NCBI RefSeq assembly: GCF_007993755.1
Contig: NZ_CP042467.1
Span: forward strand, 5,046,001 to 5,110,000
Source of the DNA: Microvenator marinus
GTDB taxonomy: Bacteria > Myxococcota_A > Bradymonadia > Bradymonadales > Bradymonadaceae
Direction of reading: 5' to 3'
Length of the DNA stretch: 64,000 bases
A program made the translations under genes and the position numbers. The notes under the pieces were generated by a model that saw only the letters and a list, made by a program, of their open reading frames with translations, had not been told where the DNA came from and did no database searches. This document shows, in pieces, positions 41,775 through 51,904 of the stretch. Positions within the stretch are counted from its first letter, which is position 1. The number at the start of each line of letters is the position of its first letter.

Positions 41775-43337
41775 ATGGTGAGTTCCAAGAGAGAGATTGT
41801 ACCTGGTGATTGCGTGCTCGTAACAGGGGCCGCAGGTGGCGTGGGAAGTCATGTGGTCAAGGCCTTGATCGATGCGGGATGTGAAGTCAAAGCAGTGGAT
41901 CTTCGGCCGATGACTCATGCCGGTTTAGACGAAGAAATCGACGAAGATTCTGTGGAGTGGATCGAGGCCGATTTGACCAAAACGGACCTGAGGGCGCTGG
42001 TCAAAGGTTGTGATGCAGTCATTCATGCTGCCGCACTGGTCGGTCTTTCCGAAAAGTACGACGATATGGTCGAAGTGAACGTCGACTTGGTGCACGAGTT
42101 GCTTGAGGCTTCGGAGGCCGAGGGCGTTCGTCACTTCATCCATTTCAGTACCGGAGCAATCTACCGCCCAGGGCGCGGATTGCTGGGAGAAGAAGCGGCG
42201 ATTGAGCCTTCGTCTGATTATGCCGAAACGAAATTGGATGCTGAGGCCGCGTTTACCAGCGATTTGAAGTTGAATTGGACCATCTTGAGGCCGGCTTTGC
42301 TCTACGGACCCAGATGCGAGTCCATGAGTGCCGGTCTTTTTACGCTTCCCCCGATTCTTCGCAACTTCATGCCTCTGATGCCGGGATTCACCGGTGGCGC
42401 GCGCTCAAACTGGTGTCATGCGGATGATGCCGCATCGGCGGCGCTCTTTGTTCTTGGAAATCCCAAGGCTTACAGCCGCGTGTTCAACGTGGCCGACGAT
42501 ACGCCAATGGGCAGCGGTGAGGTGATCACAGCGATTACCGAGGCTTATGGCCTACCGATTGGTCCTCTGGTGCCTTTCCCGAACTCCACGGTTCTTCTCG
42601 CGTTTTCTCCGGTGATGGATCGGGACTATCTGGAGCGCACGTTGAGGACTGTTCTACGACAGATATGGAAGAGGGTGGTGTCGAGACATGAGCTCGAGAC
42701 GCCACTTCGGCCGAAAGTGGATCGTGGAGCGCTCTTCTACGTGGCTGAAGATACGGTTCTTGATGCGGGCGCATTGAAAGAGTTGGGTTGGGATCCTGCA
42801 TGGCCAAGCTTCCGCGACGGCGTGGTGGACACACTTCGGTGGTATCAGGATCAAGGTTGGGCACCGAAGTTTGATGCCGAACAACGCGATCGCGAAGATA
42901 CCAGTTTTGGATTCGCGGTCTCGCAGACGCTTAGCGGGAAGTGGGTGCTACCTTCGACCGGCGAATCGCGCCCGGCGCAAGTGTCGCTTGAAGCTGAGTT
43001 CCCGAATATCGTGAAAGCGGACTTTCACGGGCGTATCAACGGGATGGCCTGGATCGAGGGTCTCGCTCAGAACGTAGCGATCGAGGGAACTGCGAAGGTT
43101 GAGATCTTTAGCGGCCGAAACCTTACTTACGAATTTGCTTTTGTAAGTGATGAAGGCGTGGCTCATCGTTGCAGAGTCGAAGCTACTTTCAATCCGTTCC
43201 GTGTGTTTAGCTCGATGTCTAATCTGAACGGGACAATGGTGAACGCCCAGGGAGAAAAGGTTGGCAACGTAGAGTTTTCATTGGGCTTTGCAGACCAACT
43301 CGTGCCGATGTTGATGAGTTTTAGGCCGTTGACATGA
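41775..43337 (+). CDS. Extended SDR with C-terminal beta-rich domain
   Basis: Residues about 10-360 are an extended short-chain dehydrogenase/epimerase: TGAAGGVG (17-24) for NAD(P), HAAALVG, the FSTGAIY strand and YxxxK (Y149, K153). Residues about 375-520 form a separate beta-rich domain (FAVSQTLSGKW, ADFHGRINGMAWIEG, NVEFSLGFADQ) not normal in this family. A 3beta-hydroxysteroid-type or sugar-epimerase role is possible. The stop overlaps the next gene by 4 nt, so it is coupled to the radical SAM enzyme. Function unproven. Confidence 0.85.
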   Translation: MVSSKREIVPGDCVLVTGAAGGVGSHVVKALIDAGCEVKAVDLRPMTHAGLDEEIDEDSVEWIEADLTKTDLRALVKGCDAVIHAAALVGLSEKYDDMVEVNVDLVHELLEASEAEGVRHFIHFSTGAIYRPGRGLLGEEAAIEPSSDYAETKLDAEAAFTSDLKLNWTILRPALLYGPRCESMSAGLFTLPPILRNFMPLMPGFTGGARSNWCHADDAASAALFVLGNPKAYSRVFNVADDTPMGSGEVITAITEAYGLPIGPLVPFPNSTVLLAFSPVMDRDYLERTLRTVLRQIWKRVVSRHELETPLRPKVDRGALFYVAEDTVLDAGALKELGWDPAWPSFRDGVVDTLRWYQDQGWAPKFDAEQRDREDTSFGFAVSQTLSGKWVLPSTGESRPAQVSLEAEFPNIVKADFHGRINGMAWIEGLAQNVAIEGTAKVEIFSGRNLTYEFAFVSDEGVAHRCRVEATFNPFRVFSSMSNLNGTMVNAQGEKVGNVEFSLGFADQLVPMLMSFRPLT

Positions 43338-44461
43338 GCTCTTGGGCACGCCGTCCGAAAATTTGGGAAGATATTGACGAGGCGACCTGGGGGAGTTGGC
43401 ATTGGCAACAGCAGCATCGCGTTCGAGATCTTGAGATTTTGGAGCGCATCCTGGAGCTCAATGATGAGGAGCGCGAGACCTTTCTGGCCGCGCGGAGTAG
43501 GTTCAGGGTGGCGATCACGCCGCACTACCTGGCACTTATGGATGGACAGGACCCGAACTGCCCGCTGAGAATGCAAGCCGTGCCGCAGTCTGGCGAACTC
43601 GAGATTCGAGCGTTTGAGCTTGAGGATCCTTTGGCCGAAGAAGCTCATAGTCCGTGCAAAGGCGTGACGCATCGGTACCCTGACCGCGTGCTGCTTTATG
43701 TGTCGCATAATTGCCCGATGTATTGCCGGCATTGCACGCGAAAGCGAAAGGTCGCAGACCCTTACACAACTTCATCAAGGGCTGATATCGAAGCCGCGCT
43801 GGAGTATATTCGCAGAACGCCTACGGCGCGCGATGTCATCGTTTCTGGAGGGGATCCACTGACCCTGAGTGATGAGCGGCTCGGTGAGATTCTAAGGGCG
43901 TTGCGCGCCATTGATCACGTGGAAGTCATTCGATTGGGCACGCGAAATCCTGTCACACTTCCTCAGCGCATCACGTCTCAGCTTCTGGAGATTTTACGCG
44001 AAGTTCGGCCCGTATATCTCCATACGCATTTCAACCACGTCAATGAGTTGGGCCACGACGCACGAAAATCGCTTTTAGAGCTCCTGGATGCAGGCTGTGT
44101 TCTCGGAAACCAAATGGTGCTCCTCAAGGGTGTCAACGACTCGCCAGAGGCAGTGATGCAGCTCAACCGGGAGCTTCTGAAGGTGGGTTGTCGGCCATAT
44201 TATATGCTTCAAGCGGATATGGCGGAGGGTATTACCCATTTCCGGACCCCGATTTCCAAGGGCCTGCAAATCATGGATCATCTGCGTGGCCGAATAGGTG
44301 GTATGGGAATTCCGCATTTCGTGGTGGATCTTCCGGGTGGGGGTGGAAAGATCGAGCTCACGCCTGATTATCTAGAAGGGAAGTACCCCCATCCTGATGG
44401 CACGCGGTGGGTTTTCCGAAATGGCTTTGGCCAGACGTTCGACTTTGTGGAGCCCGATTAG
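43334..44461 (+). CDS. Lysine 2,3-aminomutase family radical SAM enzyme
   Basis: 375 residues with the SAM cluster motif CPMYCRHC (C127, C131, C134), VSGGDPL, the RLGTRNPVTLPQRI region, and the PLP site GGGGK near the C-terminus. The residues that bind the lysine side chain in the known enzyme (Asp in QADMAEG and in VDLPGGGGK) are conserved, which favours lysine over glutamate as substrate. EpmB-type lysine modification is less likely. Overlaps the SDR gene by 4 nt. A beta-lysine-type product feeding an envelope or secondary-metabolite pathway is speculation. Confidence 0.88.
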   Translation: MSSWARRPKIWEDIDEATWGSWHWQQQHRVRDLEILERILELNDEERETFLAARSRFRVAITPHYLALMDGQDPNCPLRMQAVPQSGELEIRAFELEDPLAEEAHSPCKGVTHRYPDRVLLYVSHNCPMYCRHCTRKRKVADPYTTSSRADIEAALEYIRRTPTARDVIVSGGDPLTLSDERLGEILRALRAIDHVEVIRLGTRNPVTLPQRITSQLLEILREVRPVYLHTHFNHVNELGHDARKSLLELLDAGCVLGNQMVLLKGVNDSPEAVMQLNRELLKVGCRPYYMLQADMAEGITHFRTPISKGLQIMDHLRGRIGGMGIPHFVVDLPGGGGKIELTPDYLEGKYPHPDGTRWVFRNGFGQTFDFVEPD

Positions 44462-46173
44462 TCGGCAGGCGCTTCTTCGCCCTTGAGCCTGGCGATGGCG
44501 AGCCTCAGGTCTTCTCTCAAACAGCCCCAGCAATCTTCACCGTCGCAGCGGTTCCTCGGCATTGCATTGAATCGCTGTAGTGCGGCGAGCGCACGGGAAT
44601 CACCGAGTTCACCGATTCTCACGATATACTTTCGGTTCTCTTCACATTCGATGGCGTGGCGCAGGCGAATGGTTAACTGGTTCCACTCTTCGAGCTCTTG
44701 GAAGAGCCCAGTGTCTTCCATATGTGTGAGTGCTCGCACGCGAATCTTTTTGAGCTGATGATGTTCCGCCAGGGCTGCAAGCCTTGAGAGCGCGTCCCTT
44801 TGGATATGTTCGTTGAGGAAGGCTTGAGCCTCAGCTGCTTGTTCATCGCGCGTGACTTCGAATCGCCTCATGACGTGGTCGAGGAGTTCTCGGTCTGTGC
44901 GGTACCTGGGGTCGAGTTTGATGGCCTCGGCGAACGAAACGAACGCGTGGTCCCATTCGTCGTGAACTGCGTGCAGCGAGCCATTCAGGAAGTGTGCGTG
45001 CGCGTTCTGGGCATTCTCAAGAGTCCAATCGTCGAGATCCTGCAAACCCGCCTTGATATCTTCATGGATTCGAGTTTGGACTGTTTGAAACTCCGGGCTG
45101 TCTTCGAGCTGCTTTCGCTCTGCAGCGAGGAGCTCACCGGGCGATTGTTCGGTGGTTTCCGAGCCTTGTGTAATCTTGTTGATATCGAGCTGGCCAAGAG
45201 CCCAGACGAGAAGAACAGCTGAAAGCACGAGCACAGCGCTCACAAAGAGAGCACGCCCCACGCCTTGTTGTTCCTTCTTTTGGACGGGTTTATCGGTGCC
45301 AAGCAGCCGCCGTTCTACACGAATCAGCGCATCGTAGAGCTCGGAGGCGGTTTGAAATCGTTCTTCTTTGCGCTTCGCGAGGAGACGCATGGTGATTTCT
45401 TCGAGCTCAAGGTCGATGAGCTTCTGGGGATTTGCCACTCGAAATGGAGGAGGCGGGTCTGAGATGTGCATGTTGAGCACGACCGTTAAGCTTTTGGCAT
45501 AAAACGGCATTTTCCCAGTGAGCATCTCGTACATCATGATGCCCACGGAATAGAGATCCGCACGATGGTCGACCTCTTTGCCCCCGGCTTGTTCCGGCGA
45601 CATGTAGAGAGGAGAGCCGTAAACGACCCCCGCCTGAGTGAGTCGGGCCGCGTCTTTGAAGAGCCGGACTTGCGCGACTCCAAAATCCGTAATTTTTACG
45701 AAATCCGGGTCTTGCTCGCGCTGAACGATCATCACGTTTTCTGGCTTGAGATCTCGATGGACCACTCCCATTTCATGGGCGCGTTCAAGCCCCGCGCAGA
45801 TTTGTTTGATCAAATGAAGCGTTCTTAGCTCAGTGAAGGACTCCTCTTCCTTCAAGATGTCGTGAAGTGGTCTGCCGTTTAGAAACTCCATGACGAGGAA
45901 GTACGTATCTCCCTGGGCGCCAAAATCACTTGCGGAGCAGATATTTGGATGCTCGATGTTTGCAGCGGCCTGCGCCTCCCGCTGGAAGCGTTCCACCACC
46001 TCAGGGTCTTTGACATGCGTTGCATGAAGGACCTTGACGGCAACCGTCTTCTTCATGTGGATGTGTTCAGCTTTGAACACGCTTCCCATGGTGCCACTTC
46101 CGAGTGGCTCGAGAATCCGGTAGCGATTCGCCAGGACTTGCCCCACCAGGTTCTTGACCTTTGTCGAGCTCAT
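44458..46173 (-). CDS. Membrane Ser/Thr protein kinase
   Basis: N-terminal eukaryotic-type kinase domain (about residues 18-290): LGSGTMGSVF, AVKVL (K47), HRDLKPEN (139-146), DFG (163-165), YMSPEQAGG. One membrane segment follows (about 306-328), then a helical C-terminal part of about 240 residues with possible TPR-like repeats (the HDEWDHAFVSFAEAIKLDP segment) and a CDGEDCWGC cysteine motif near the end. The last gene of a six-gene minus-strand cluster, just after the GAF gene. It ends with a 4-nt overlap on the radical SAM gene. Substrate unknown. Confidence 0.92.
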   Translation of the reverse strand: MSSTKVKNLVGQVLANRYRILEPLGSGTMGSVFKAEHIHMKKTVAVKVLHATHVKDPEVVERFQREAQAAANIEHPNICSASDFGAQGDTYFLVMEFLNGRPLHDILKEEESFTELRTLHLIKQICAGLERAHEMGVVHRDLKPENVMIVQREQDPDFVKITDFGVAQVRLFKDAARLTQAGVVYGSPLYMSPEQAGGKEVDHRADLYSVGIMMYEMLTGKMPFYAKSLTVVLNMHISDPPPPFRVANPQKLIDLELEEITMRLLAKRKEERFQTASELYDALIRVERRLLGTDKPVQKKEQQGVGRALFVSAVLVLSAVLLVWALGQLDINKITQGSETTEQSPGELLAAERKQLEDSPEFQTVQTRIHEDIKAGLQDLDDWTLENAQNAHAHFLNGSLHAVHDEWDHAFVSFAEAIKLDPRYRTDRELLDHVMRRFEVTRDEQAAEAQAFLNEHIQRDALSRLAALAEHHQLKKIRVRALTHMEDTGLFQELEEWNQLTIRLRHAIECEENRKYIVRIGELGDSRALAALQRFNAMPRNRCDGEDCWGCLREDLRLAIARLKGEEAPAD

Positions 46174-46179
46174 CGCGGT

Positions 46180-47373
46180 TTATTCCAGTTTTTCAGCGGC
46201 CATGATGAGATCGTTGACGTATCGAGCAAGCTGCTTTCCGACGTAAGTCAGCACGTTGAGCTCGGTGCTATCGAAGTGATTGTCTTCCGAATTGAGGAGT
46301 TCAATTGCCCCAAAGACCCGGCCCTCGTGTTGAATCGGTGCGCAGCAGAGGCTCTTCGTTGGGTAGCCAAGAGCTTCCGATACTTGCCGATAGAAGCGCG
46401 GATCGTTGGGTGCGTCGCTGATGGCGAGAGAGACGCCCTCACGGGTGCAGAAGCCAGCGATGCCCTTGCCCATCGGGACGCGGAAGCTCATGACGTCGGC
46501 CGCTTTGGGGCCACGTGCTGTGGCGAAGTAGAGTTCTTTGCCATTAACGTCGGCGAACATAATGCTTCCGGCTTCGGCGCCGACCTTATCGAGGGCGAGG
46601 TCCATGATGAAGTTTACGACTTCTTCCATGGTCATATCGCCGTCGTGAATTCGGTTGGTCTCAAGGAAGACCTCTTCGAGGATATTATCGCTGACTCGGT
46701 CGGTGCGAGGCTGAAGCTTAACCGCAGGTCGTTCACCGGTCGGGGAGCGTCTCTCTTCGAGGACTTTGGCTTGGGGCTGTTCACGCTGAAGCGCTTGCAT
46801 CGTACTCGAGCCAATCCGCATGCGAGCTTCGGCGGCGGCGTCGTGCGTTTCCGAGATTTCTGCACCCAATTGAGGCTGGGGCTCCTCCACAACGACCTTA
46901 GGCTCTTCGACGACGACTTTAGGCTCTTCGACGACAACCTTGGGTTCCGGCGTCTGGGCGAGCGGGCTTTCGACCGGTTCAGTCTTGCGTTCGCCCGAGC
47001 CGTCACGAGCGATCTGATGGCTCAAATCGGTCGGGACGCGGTCGAATGTCTGTGCAGGCTGCGCCGGCGTGACAGGCGCCTTCGGTGCATTGCTTATATC
47101 GATGCGTTGGGTGGCAGCTTGCTCCGGTTCCTCTTGCGGGGGTGCGTCTGGATCAACTTCCTTGAGCACAAAAACACGCCGGGTTGAGGCATCGGTCACG
47201 TGAATAGAGTTATCCTGCTTGATATCGCACATGACGTTGCGAATCAGATCTTCGGCTTCACCTGTTTTTGCCAATCCGGTCTTGAGCGCGCTCATCCAGT
47301 TATCAGCTTCGACAGTGAGGGTGACGTCGTATCCATCGGCGTCGATCGAAGGGATAAAAACTTCATAAATCAT
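46180..47373 (-). CDS. GAF-domain protein with repetitive linker
   Basis: Residues about 1-75 are a small N-terminal domain (MIYEVFIPSIDADGYDVTLTVEADNWMSAL). The middle is a Pro/Glu-rich linker with three repeats of EPKVVVE. The C-terminal about 170 residues are a GAF domain (GSIMFADVNGKELYFATARGPKA, GIAGFCTREG, CCAPIQHEGRVFGAIELLN). GAF domains sense small molecules or act as regulators. GAGGA precedes the ATG at 47373. It lies 6 nt before the kinase gene and is a likely partner or substrate. Confidence 0.85.
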   Translation of the reverse strand: MIYEVFIPSIDADGYDVTLTVEADNWMSALKTGLAKTGEAEDLIRNVMCDIKQDNSIHVTDASTRRVFVLKEVDPDAPPQEEPEQAATQRIDISNAPKAPVTPAQPAQTFDRVPTDLSHQIARDGSGERKTEPVESPLAQTPEPKVVVEEPKVVVEEPKVVVEEPQPQLGAEISETHDAAAEARMRIGSSTMQALQREQPQAKVLEERRSPTGERPAVKLQPRTDRVSDNILEEVFLETNRIHDGDMTMEEVVNFIMDLALDKVGAEAGSIMFADVNGKELYFATARGPKAADVMSFRVPMGKGIAGFCTREGVSLAISDAPNDPRFYRQVSEALGYPTKSLCCAPIQHEGRVFGAIELLNSEDNHFDSTELNVLTYVGKQLARYVNDLIMAAEKLE

Positions 47374-47462
47374 GTGATAATCCTCGCAATATGAGTGCTG
47401 GTAGCAGGAGCATCGCACACTCAACACCCACGCGCAATTTCAAGCTGAGTTGGACCCAGACC

Positions 47463-47705
47463 TTACGGGGAATTTGGTTGCTGAACGCCGCAGGCGCCAG
47501 AGCGGCAACCACGGCTACCGTCGAGCTTGACACCGTCGAGGCGATAGCCTGTTTTTACGAGGGTTTGGGCGTCTACCCATGTGAGATTTTCAAGGATTTC
47601 GTCACATTTGACACAGACGGTCTGGACGTCTGGAGCCCACACACCGAGGGAGTCGGGGCCACAATTGGGGCAATCACCGGTTGGGAACGAGGCTTCTTCA
47701 TGCAT
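47463..47705 (-). CDS. Small zinc-ribbon-like protein
   Basis: 80 residues with CPNC and CVKC pairs spaced like a zinc ribbon, and a C-terminal CRSGACG. No signal peptide. It is the fourth gene of the six-gene minus-strand cluster, 2 nt after the gene before it. Unknown function; a regulatory or adaptor role is possible. Confidence 0.55.
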   Translation of the reverse strand: MHEEASFPTGDCPNCGPDSLGVWAPDVQTVCVKCDEILENLTWVDAQTLVKTGYRLDGVKLDGSRGCRSGACGVQQPNSP

Positions 47706-47707
47706 AT

Positions 47708-48115
47708 TTAGCGCTCACTGCGTGCAATTTCTCTTAGGGCCAGCGACAACATGTCTTCAACTCGTCGAGTGAACTCGGGGTCATCGACAAGCAACTCCTT
47801 AATGGAAGCCGCCTTTTCTTCAGGAATATTCCCGAATTTTTGGGTGATGACATGGTCGACGACCCGTTCTCGCACGGCTCGTTCATCCCCGATTTTTCCG
47901 TGAATGGCGTCGAGCGCGATGTGTTGGATCTCGAGGCTGGTGGCGGACGTAGCTTTAGGGGCATCCGCAGAGGGAGGACCGTGAAATCTTCCCCCTTTTG
48001 CGGAGTTTACCTGCGCTTGCTCTTCTGAGTAGACATCTTGGAGTCTCTCGAGCATGGAAGCAGGTTGAGATTGTATCTTCATAGCTGTCACGACCACTAC
48101 TCCGATCGGGATCAC
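47708..48115 (-). CDS. Small helical protein of the kinase cluster
   Basis: About 125-135 residues, mostly helical and charged in the second half (HALDAIHGKIGDERAVRERV-like region, ending RREIARSER-like). The GTG start at 48115 overlaps the TPR gene stop (4 nt); an ATG at 48082 would give a shorter, likely product. No family is recognised. The context (a TPR protein of chaperone type before it) hints at an exported or regulatory partner. Confidence 0.6.
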   Translation of the reverse strand: MIPIGVVVVTAMKIQSQPASMLERLQDVYSEEQAQVNSAKGGRFHGPPSADAPKATSATSLEIQHIALDAIHGKIGDERAVRERVVDHVITQKFGNIPEEKAASIKELLVDDPEFTRRVEDMLSLALREIARSER

Positions 48116-48504
48116 GCGTCAACGAATGCTTCGTGCAAAAGTCCCATCACTTCAGTGTGAAGGTGTGCATCTTGGCGGCTTTGAGCTTGCTCGAGTTGTC
48201 TCAGACCTTGGGGTTTGGCTCCACTCAGAAGGAGAGCTTCGGCGAGGTAGATCTGCGGCAGGGCGTTTTCAGGGTGGCGCTTTGCAGCGACCCTCAAGAC
48301 CTTGATAGCTTCTTTGAAGTCGCCCTTGGCGGTCAGAATCGCGCCCTTGAGAGTGTCCGGAAGGAAATGCTCCGGCGCGGATTCCTTGGCCAGTTCACAT
48401 GCTTGAAGTGCGTCTTCCCAGGCCTCTTGGTCCAGAAAGAGGTAGGCACATTTCAATTGATGTTGTGCGAGTGTCTCAGCTTGCATTTGGTTCGTATCAT
48501 TCAT
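48112..48504 (-). CDS. TPR protein of type III-chaperone-like size
   Basis: 130 residues made of about three TPR motifs (CAYLFLDQEAWEDALQACELA, LKGAILTAKGDFKEAIKVL, PQIYLAEALLLSGAKPQGL). Small stand-alone TPR proteins of this size include SycD/LcrH chaperones of type III secretion, but no secretion machine is in the window, so this is only a suggestion. The preceding gene on the same strand encodes a small helical protein that could be its client. It overlaps the next gene by 4 nt. Confidence 0.75.
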   Translation of the reverse strand: MNDTNQMQAETLAQHQLKCAYLFLDQEAWEDALQACELAKESAPEHFLPDTLKGAILTAKGDFKEAIKVLRVAAKRHPENALPQIYLAEALLLSGAKPQGLRQLEQAQSRQDAHLHTEVMGLLHEAFVDA

Positions 48505-48510
48505 GTTCTA

Positions 48511-48912
48511 TCACACGTGCATGTTGTTGATTGCTGCCTTTGCTGTGTCGTGACGGGCCTTCATGAGGTTTGACATCGTTGAGAAACGACGGTTGTCCTC
48601 TTGAATTGCCGTTTGCAGTTCGAGGTATTGCAGATTGAACATCTGGCTTTCTCTCTGCATGGCCCACATCTTGTCCATTTGGTCATTGGCCCCGACGTCT
48701 CCTCCGCCAAGTGCTGCTCGGAGGCCATTCGTCGCAGCGGACACGAGCCCACCGCCTGGAATAACGCTCGCGGCTGTTCCGACGGCTGCCAGCGCGCCAT
48801 CTGCCACGCTCTTCATGGTCTTTGAGAACGTCCCATCTGACGAGGACTTGTTCTTGGTATGCTCTAGGTTGCCGACGCCGGCGCCTCGAATTCGACTGAT
48901 ATCATTGGACAC
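48511..48912 (-). CDS. Small helical protein, possible secreted or filament protein
   Basis: 133 residues: a Ser/Lys-rich start, a Gly/Ala-rich central part (ALAAVGTAASVIPGGGLVSA), and a C-terminal helix with a distinctive pattern (MQRESQMFNLQYLELQTAIQ, then SNLMKARHDTAKAAINNM). No signal peptide. The layout resembles small helical proteins exported without cleavage, such as type III substrates, but no homologue is named. It has a very strong AAGGAGG before the ATG, the best of the cluster, which suggests high expression. Confidence 0.65.
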   Translation of the reverse strand: MSNDISRIRGAGVGNLEHTKNKSSSDGTFSKTMKSVADGALAAVGTAASVIPGGGLVSAATNGLRAALGGGDVGANDQMDKMWAMQRESQMFNLQYLELQTAIQEDNRRFSTMSNLMKARHDTAKAAINNMHV

Positions 48913-49090: not shown

Positions 49091-49537
49091 ATGAGCCATA
49101 AAAACCACTTGAAGATCCACGCAGCCCACCTCGATTTGGATTTGCGCGGCGAGGCCGAGTACGTGGAACGAGCTTATGCGGCGATTCGCCCGGTCCTGAT
49201 GGAGCGCTATCGCGAGTCGCTTTTAGCTCCCGGTGCCATTCGTGAGACGTCGGAGCTAGAGAGCATTCCGCGTCCCGCACAGGCGGTGAAACGGGCTGAG
49301 CCCGAGCCGAAAATCGTCAATGTCGTGATGTGTGGTGAGGTCTATAACAAGGTCTTTATCAGCGAGCGTGATCGCTTCGATGACGGACTCTTAGGGCGCG
49401 CGCTTTCGTTTGATGGACTGCGAAGAATTTATGTCAATCGGTCTCAAGAGTCGTCGTTTTCGAAGGACTTCAAATTCGAGAAGGTTCTCTGGCGTGAATT
49501 GACTGCGGCCGGGCGCCAAGCGGTCAAGAAGGGGTAG
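49091..49537 (+). CDS. Small protein paired with the beta-propeller protein
   Basis: 148 residues without signal peptide. N-terminal half rich in charged helix (AEYVERAYAAIRPVLMERYRES); C-terminal half is basic and strand-like (VVMCGEVYNKVFISER, FDGLRRIYVNR). AGGA lies 7 nt before the ATG. The next gene starts right after its stop. No family is recognised; it is a likely partner of the propeller protein. Confidence 0.65.
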   Translation: MSHKNHLKIHAAHLDLDLRGEAEYVERAYAAIRPVLMERYRESLLAPGAIRETSELESIPRPAQAVKRAEPEPKIVNVVMCGEVYNKVFISERDRFDDGLLGRALSFDGLRRIYVNRSQESSFSKDFKFEKVLWRELTAAGRQAVKKG

Positions 49538-51904
49538 ATGAACGCGCTTCAAATCGTCATAGGTCAACGGTGGCAAGAAGATGTGCGTTATCTCTACGAC
49601 ATTCGACTCGCCCGCCCGAGCGGCGCGTCTTTGAATCCAACGGAATTCCGCGATGTGATCGACCTTGTGGTCGACGGACGGAATATCACGGCACATATCG
49701 ACGAAGAGTCGGTCTTTGGACTGATCTCGGAGCTGGTTCGGGCGACCGAAGAGCTCTTGGAAGACGGAGAGAAAGTCCTCGTTGAGTTTCCAACATCGCC
49801 GTATGAATTGGTGCTGGTTCCTAATTTGGATTCGGTCCTGATCAGCCTCTATTCAGTGGATCACGAGCATCGCGTGTACGCGCACAACGCGCGGGTCGGA
49901 CTAAGTTATTGGGTGCAGGGCGTGACGCGTGCCGCAGAACACGTGCTGGCCGAGTTGCTATCGATCGATGATCGTTTTGCGACGAACGCATTGATCCGGG
50001 CTATGGGACGAAACGTTGCGTGGTTGAACCGTCAGAAGTTGGCCGCATTTGAAGAGCAGGCTTGGGATTCTTTCGAAATCTCGGGTGGAACCTCGACGCC
50101 GAGCGGGTTGTCTCTTCACTACGAACTCATGCTCGACTCTGACTTGCAGTCCTATCGTGGCTCGATCCCGTTTGATCTCCACGCGCTTTTGGTCAAAGGG
50201 CATATCGCTGTGGAATGGCAGGAGAAGATGAGCTTGCTTTCGTCTTCGTACCCGTTGTTGAGCGTGATGGCGATTGCCGTTCGGGTTCGCGAACTCCTGA
50301 GCCTGGTGGAAGCCGGTACGCAGCGTTTTGTGTGTGCGAGAGATTCCGAGCACCTAAATCTGGAGATTCGTGCGGAACGTCAATGGACCTTGAGTTGTGA
50401 AGGCGGGCTCGACGCGGAGGTGCGTCCGAACGAATGCCTTGAGACCTTGATTTCAGTGGTCGAAATGATTCTGAGGGATCTTCGTGAGAGTAACTCCAAA
50501 CTGGCCTTGAATCAGAGGTTCAACGATTTGGTGGAAGAGGCCAGCGAGCTTCGATCGTGGTTTTCCGAGCTTTCGGCTTCTAACACCTATTTTGAGACTC
50601 CCGAGGAATTTCTGAGGGATAACGCGCAGGTTCGGCCGGAGCGGAAAACAGATGAGATGCCCACTTTCACGTGGCCATTTGAGAGCGTAAAAGCGCTCTA
50701 TCCCCGTGAAAAGTGGCGCCTCGATGGAGAGACAATTCAGTTTAAGGGTATCGAGCTGGTTGGAGATAAGCTTCTGATTCCAACCTCGGAGGCGCTCGAA
50801 GCGCGCTATGTTTCGTCGGGCGCATTGGCGTGGGAGTTGTTGGAATGCGGAGATTCCGACCTCGTGAGCTACTCATTTGCTGCGGATACATTGGTGGCTG
50901 CAACCCAAGAGGGTACCCTTTGGCTGATCGAGCCGGAGGATGGCCATGTGCGTTGTGCCGTTGAGTGTGAGCCCCGCGAGGCAACGTCTCTTCTTCTGGA
51001 CGCCGCGTCCTACTCAGATTGGGATCGCGTTGTCATCGCCGAGATGAATGGAGCCATCTGTGGGGTGTCAAAGACGACAGGCCGTGCGCAATGGTCCCAT
51101 GACTCGAGTCACGGATATATGGTCGGTGTGGCGTTTGATGGGCCGTTGGTCACGACACTTTCGAGTCCAGGGTTCTTGCAGGCCTTTCATCCGCTGAGCG
51201 GAGATCGGCTGTGGCGAGTGCGTCTGGGAGGTGTGGCGGATCTTGGGCCCTACCTGCACGAGGGGCGGATTTATGCGCTCACGCATGACCCGCTAACCCA
51301 CGGTCTTAGCGTTCATTCGGTTTACCCGTTTACCGGCCGCACGCACTGGATGTTGCGGGTCGAGGGCGCATTGGTTGGGCCTCCAGATTTCATTGGCAAT
51401 ATGATGATTATGCCGATTGAGAGTCATGGACGAATCCAGCTCTTCGGGGTGGATCTCGAAGCTCGAACGCCTAGTGTTTCGTGGTCGCTGGATCTCTTGA
51501 CGGCGGGTCTAGACAGACCGACCCGTGTTGTAAGCGTGGAGGTTGACGGCCATCTATGCGGGGTGGTGAAGACCGACAGGGGTGAGCTGACTTGCTTTAG
51601 GCTTCAGGATGGAGAGGTGGTCTGGCGCGAGCGCGTTGAGGTCGAGTCCGGTCTGCTTTTCAGAAATATCGATATGCTCGTGGTCCGAGATAGTCTGCTG
51701 ACGAAGGGGGATCGCCTTGAGATTCGTGCTCTCTCAGATGGGTCGCTCTTGCACACGATCGACGAACTCAGCGGCGCACTAGACTTCATTATGGCCGTCG
51801 ATAACCTCGATATTTTGGTGGGGAGTATCGGCTCGGAAGAGAATTCAGACGAGCTGATTTGTCTGGCGTTATCGCACTTCCTCGCGCTTGTACCGGCCGA
51901 CTAA
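49538..51904 (+). CDS. Cytoplasmic PQQ-like beta-propeller protein
   Basis: 788 residues, no signal peptide or membrane segment. The N-terminal about 400 residues show no recognised domain. The C-terminal half (from about residue 405) has propeller-like blades of PQQ/WD type ([67 protein letters not shown]), about six or seven repeats, without an obvious catalytic motif. Most PQQ-like proteins are periplasmic; a cytoplasmic one may be a scaffold. It directly follows its small partner and ends on upp with a 4-nt overlap. Confidence 0.8.

Follow-up and report, generated by a model that had tools for sequence, protein, structure and literature searches.

A helical protein family of Myxococcota as a candidate needle- or pilus-like subunit of the non-flagellar type III secretion system of Microvenator marinus

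Background

The SctF needle proteins of classical type III secretion systems (T3SS), represented by MxiH, PrgI and YscF (PF09392), are two-helix hairpins of about 80 amino acids, and the HrpA pilins (PF09589, NF053530) are found in plant-associated bacteria. The PscE-PscF-PscG set of Pseudomonas is a known T3SS arrangement. The T3SS of Myxococcus xanthus, designated T3SS*, is described as having no secretin, needle or translocon (PMC12075869, PMC10433427). Loss of SctF from the T3SS of Myxococcota was argued by Abby and Rocha (PMC3459982). A needle-less T3SS* has also been attributed to Bradymonabacteria (PMC11509652), with levels of export-apparatus genes that rise during predation (PMC7460792). 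A search of the literature available without subscription found no paper joining Myxococcota and SctF. Models of predation by Myxococcus and Bradymonabacteria rest on the needleless T3SS* (PMC12075869, PMC10433427, PMC11509652), an assumption that a candidate subunit makes testable.

The genome of Microvenator marinus (5.85 Mb, a single contig) resembles these organisms in having a Sct core and no recognised T3SS secretin, but differs from them in that it encodes a needle-like protein family away from the Sct core, and in that the core genes are found at three loci, whereas they form one cluster in M. xanthus. The gene of this family in the locus described here, designated hel, encodes a helical protein of 133 amino acids that probably (at a rough probability of 0.62) serves the non-flagellar T3SS of this genome as a needle- or pilus-like subunit with a remote relationship to SctF/HrpA. 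Because T3SS* has been described as needleless and no paper combining Myxococcota and SctF was found, the hel family is a plausible missed component, and one easily missed because it is encoded away from the T3SS core genes.

The hel gene cluster

The window, which is the whole stretch of 64,000 nucleotides that was analysed, contains six closely spaced open reading frames on the minus strand at 44458-48912, and a pair of genes on the plus strand that diverge from them:

49538..51904, plus strand: 788-aa PQQ-type beta-propeller protein (PQQ_2, 1.5e-17), divergent from hel and kept with the cluster
49091..49537, plus strand: 148-aa protein of no family, divergent from hel and kept with the cluster in Bradymonadales relatives
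48923-48918: ribosome-binding site of hel, AGGAGG, near-perfect
48511..48912, minus strand: hel, 133-aa helical protein with a GTG start; candidate needle/pilus-like T3SS subunit
48514..48672, minus strand: near-invariant C-terminal 53 residues of Hel (...NLQYLxLQxxxQxDNRRFSTxSNLMKxRHDTAKAAINNMH)
48112..48504, minus strand: TPR protein of 130 aa, candidate chaperone of Hel
47708..48082, minus strand: 121/124-aa partner protein, kept downstream of hel across much of the phylum
47463..47705, minus strand: 80-aa protein with a zinc-ribbon-like CxxC...CxxC pattern, kept in relatives
46180..47373, minus strand: GAF protein of 397 aa (Pfam GAF_2, 2.2e-15), kept in relatives
44458..46173, minus strand: membrane Ser/Thr kinase of 571 aa (Pkinase, 2.8e-54), a lineage-specific neighbour

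The better start of the GAF protein is 47373, where the conserved MxYEVFIP begins; the protein has a conserved N-terminal domain opening with this motif and a variable EPKVVVE linker. A Pfam scan gave no convincing match for Hel, the 121-aa protein or the 80-aa protein, and a weak FTCD_C match in 2 of 56 hel family members was dismissed. A promoter scan found no sigma-70-like site, a result that is uninformative for this phylum. A preliminary description of the window had proposed a single six-gene operon encoding a secretion-associated signalling module, with a highly expressed helical protein, a TPR protein and a GAF protein bearing EPKVVVE linker repeats. The six same-strand genes, the TPR assignment (Pfam TPR_19, 1.2e-6; AlphaFold pLDDT 94), the linker repeats (three) and the helical nature of the small protein (a long C-terminal helix is predicted) are corroborated; the codon adaptation of hel, 0.61, is the average of the window and gives no support to high expression.

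At eight loci of public genomes, the genes of the 788-aa and 148-aa proteins diverge from hel-TPR-121-aa-Zn-GAF in an order that is kept as far as the contigs reach. Five more relatives have the same outline, except that one of them (G043) has no TPR gene between hel and the 121-aa gene; a TPR gene is apparently also lacking at locus L048, where hel is followed after 5 bases by the start of the 121-aa gene. What is conserved in relatives is therefore the hel, TPR, 121-aa, Zn and GAF genes together with the divergent upstream pair (49091-51904). Because the kinase gene follows the GAF gene only here and in G043 among the relatives examined, the kinase is a local addition outside the conserved cluster; in most relatives its place after the GAF gene is taken by the gene of a small membrane protein. 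Of the proposed operon, the close spacing of six genes stands and a conserved six-gene unit does not; synteny rules out the kinase as a member of the module, and the signalling half of the proposal is not supported. The phylum-wide core is hel and the downstream gene of the 121-aa protein; this protein is conserved over much of the phylum, and intermediate sequences join its Bradymonadales and other forms. At positions 41775-46173 of the window, genes of the kinase, a lysine 2,3-aminomutase-like protein and an epimerase are found in an order that recurs beside the GAF gene in G043 (L185) and in none of the other relatives examined.

Type III secretion genes elsewhere in the genome

As the preliminary description stated, no secretion machine is visible in the window. 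The search for T3SS genes that it recommended located them elsewhere: when the genome was searched family by family, FHIPEP, FlhB/SctU, the T3SS ATPase, YscJ/FliF and FliP/SctR each turned up in two copies. One set belongs to the flagellar region at 3.78-3.82 Mb, and the other is non-flagellar, dispersed over three distant loci of the chromosome:

1785503-1790053: SctI-J-K-L-N-O and a 128-aa protein
2250507-2254166: SctR (FliO-fused), SctS, SctT, SctU and a SycD-like TPR protein
1072813-1074900: SctV, alone

Some of these assignments are weak (SctI, 0.0024; SctO, 0.0046) and that of SctK is by position only; the core components SctJ, N, R, S, T, U and V are all present and distinct from the flagellar set. 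Among the secretin-domain proteins of the genome, no dedicated T3SS secretin (SctC) was recognised; three secretins belong, judged by their neighbours, to T2SS-, type IV pilus- and Tad-like loci. The Tad-like pilus locus (4935664-4945030) encodes CpaB-like, FHA-CpaF-like, TadB/C-like and pilin-like proteins with a 475-aa secretin, and can be compared with the Kil system of M. xanthus.

The hel family and its match to needle and pilin models

The nearest relatives of this genome, going by the named organisms that a search with Hel brought up, are Bradymonadales/Lujinxingiaceae (Myxococcota). Among the Bradymonadales members of the hel family, the C-terminal 53 residues have a mean pairwise identity of 79%, versus 38% for the rest of the protein. 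The AlphaFold model (three helices at low confidence; pLDDT 61, pTM 0.25) is weak except for a single long C-terminal helix, and a fold search with it returned zero matches, as expected from so weak a model. A second, mostly longer type of protein has the same C-terminus; in this genome, such long paralogs are encoded by a tandem pair (223615-225329) followed directly by the gene of a 116-aa TPR protein (whole locus, 223615-225682), possibly a locus of a second T3SS-exported subunit.

A blind scan of 379 Myxococcota genomes with the Pfam needle model gave 24 weak hits, 12 of them exactly on hel family members (three of the short type and nine of the long type), aligned mostly to the C-terminal end of the needle profile. 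The number expected by chance from gene counts is far lower (binomial p < 1e-29 even if one gene in 1000 belonged to the hel family). When 56 members were scanned individually, the commonest Pfam families were HrpA_pilin (7), T3SS_needle_F (6) and HrpF (5), and 19 of the 56 matched the NCBIfam model T3SS_pilin_HrpA (NF053530; best E in the family, 0.0012); Hel of this genome matches the latter with an E of 0.0084 and 16.5 bits over model positions 19-109 of 118. T3SS_needle_F was matched by 5 of 13 members of the long type, and three members (L059, L121, L135) cover the needle profile from position 15/20 to its end at 71 of 71. The part of Hel that matches the needle and pilin profiles is the conserved C-terminal 53 residues. 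With reversed sequences of 52 of the 56 members, no T3SS needle or pilin family was matched. The best family member reaches 24.8 bits against the curated cut-off of 29.4 bits for PF09392, for which Hel of this genome is not listed, and no member reaches the cut-off of 34 bits for NF053530. A search of PDB sequences with the short family yielded chance matches only, and with the long family PrgI in the same C-terminal register, at an E of 0.9 that is not significant alone. Because all matches fall below the curated cut-offs, these sequence comparisons point to remote relatedness of the hel family to T3SS needle/pilus subunits, not to membership in those families.

Co-occurrence of hel with non-flagellar T3SS

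A hel profile found members in 60 of the 379 genomes and a deeper profile in 62, belonging to 19 families, in 16 of which there are genomes with both hel and SctJ. Non-flagellar SctJ was called as a PF01514 hit weaker than FliF or as a second copy, a rule that takes in a few genomes having two FliF as well; by this call, 55 genomes have both hel and SctJ, seven (mostly fragmented assemblies) hel alone, 37 SctJ alone and 280 neither. The odds ratio is 59 (p 1.8e-33, with the genomes, though related, counted as if independent), compared to 0.96 (p 1) for hel and flagellar FliF. The proposed association of the cluster with secretion is upheld by this co-occurrence and by the remote needle/pilus relationship. 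The 37 genomes counted as SctJ-positive without hel include four of the five SctJ-positive genomes of one family (f42), and a long paralog was found in 1 of 36 such genomes. Either true loss of the needle or a more divergent subunit could account for them; true loss is possible in f42, since hel is absent from four of its five SctJ-positive genomes. No linkage of hel to Sct genes was seen in the distant loci examined.

Partners of Hel

The TPR protein is a candidate chaperone of Hel. SycD (2vgy) fits its model over the full length (TM 0.76/0.75), and generic TPR proteins fit equally; matches to chaperone families are weak (HrpB1_HrpK, 0.0056; LcrH_SycD, 0.0026; CdsG, 0.011) and generic TPR families score higher. 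It is like the TPR chaperones of T3SS (SycD/LcrH, SctY, CdsG/SctG) in size, fold and place beside a putative substrate, and unlike them in its weak sequence scores, which are shared with generic TPR proteins. The 121-aa protein, judged by its position, is a candidate second chaperone or export partner. By analogy, the hel/TPR/121-aa arrangement recalls the PscE-PscF-PscG set of Pseudomonas, a likeness that is a lead and not a test.

Alternative explanations

Hel resembles SctF in that its conserved C-terminal helix aligns to the C-terminal end of the needle profile and in that it co-occurs with non-flagellar T3SS (55 of 62 genomes); it is unlike SctF in its length, its lack of linkage to Sct genes, its scores below the Pfam cut-off and the absence of a recognised secretin from its T3SS. 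The length of Hel is similar to that of HrpA pilins, the NCBIfam model of which is matched by 19 of 56 members, but its scores are again below cut-off and its host belongs to a predatory lineage, unlike the plant associates that possess HrpA. Counting against a needle or pilus subunit, then, are the lack of any member above cut-off, the 133-aa length, the lack of Sct linkage, the weak model of Hel, the unrecognised secretin and the 37 SctJ-positive genomes without hel. The modest E-values, the tendency of helical proteins to yield spurious matches and the separation of hel from Sct genes would all be expected if the resemblance were an artefact of composition in a Gln/Asn-rich helix of a protein unrelated to T3SS; this is the least likely of the explanations, given that the reversed-sequence control was negative, that half of the blind needle hits (12 of 24) fell on one family, that two libraries indicate the same kind of protein, and that hel associates with T3SS and not with flagella.

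Two other explanations would make Hel a protein exported by the T3SS that does not form the needle. It is unlikely that Hel is an early-exported substrate or a regulator like SctX (YscX), chaperoned by the TPR protein in the manner of SctY, that would aid the export gate and form no filament. The YscX:YscY pair, which is known to bind SctV (PMC9163089), is a precedent, relatives of the TPR protein match SctY weakly (best, 2.1e-4), and the size and non-linkage of hel would suit such a pair equally, but no YscX family is among those listed for the scanned members, in which needle and pilin models recur; moreover, the TPR gene is sometimes absent and generic TPR families score equally. Still less likely is a secreted substrate (effector, translocator or tip protein) with a needle-like C-terminal helix, the needle itself being the long paralog or another unlinked protein. 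The Pfam needle model is indeed matched by a greater part of the long type than of the short (5 of 13 versus 6 of 56), and the long type in this genome also adjoins a TPR gene; on the other hand, the short type is more widespread, it also matches the HrpA pilin, and its C-terminus is near-invariant, as for a polymerising subunit.

A model of the Hel subunit

If Hel is a needle- or pilus-like subunit, the TPR protein, possibly with the 121-aa partner, would keep it unpolymerised in the cytoplasm and it would be passed to the SctRSTUV export gate, after which, above SctI, its conserved C-terminal helix would pack to build a helical filament. This filament might be either short and periplasmic, or extended through the outer membrane by way of a secretin borrowed from another system (that of the Tad/Kil pilus, for example), and would serve in contact with prey. 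The longer paralogs, with the same C-terminus and their own TPR neighbour, could make up a distal part or the tip. It is a tentative and rather doubtful extension of this model that the secretin-less, "needleless" T3SS of many Myxococcota builds a needle or pilus from the hel family, whether periplasmic or extended by way of a Tad-type secretin, for use on prey bacteria. If this were true, the T3SS would be a bacterium-against-bacterium injector that retains the ancestral needle. The candidate subunit bears on the evolution of non-flagellar T3SS from the flagellum, and on the question of T3SS action against bacteria.

A link of hel to the flagellum was rejected: hel does not track FliF, and near 3.77 Mb the flagellar region has only a distant relative of the TPR protein. 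This relative (3770791-3771839, near the flagellar locus) is encoded beside an unrelated helical protein of 198 aa that belongs to no known family, and the two may be another substrate/chaperone-like pair.
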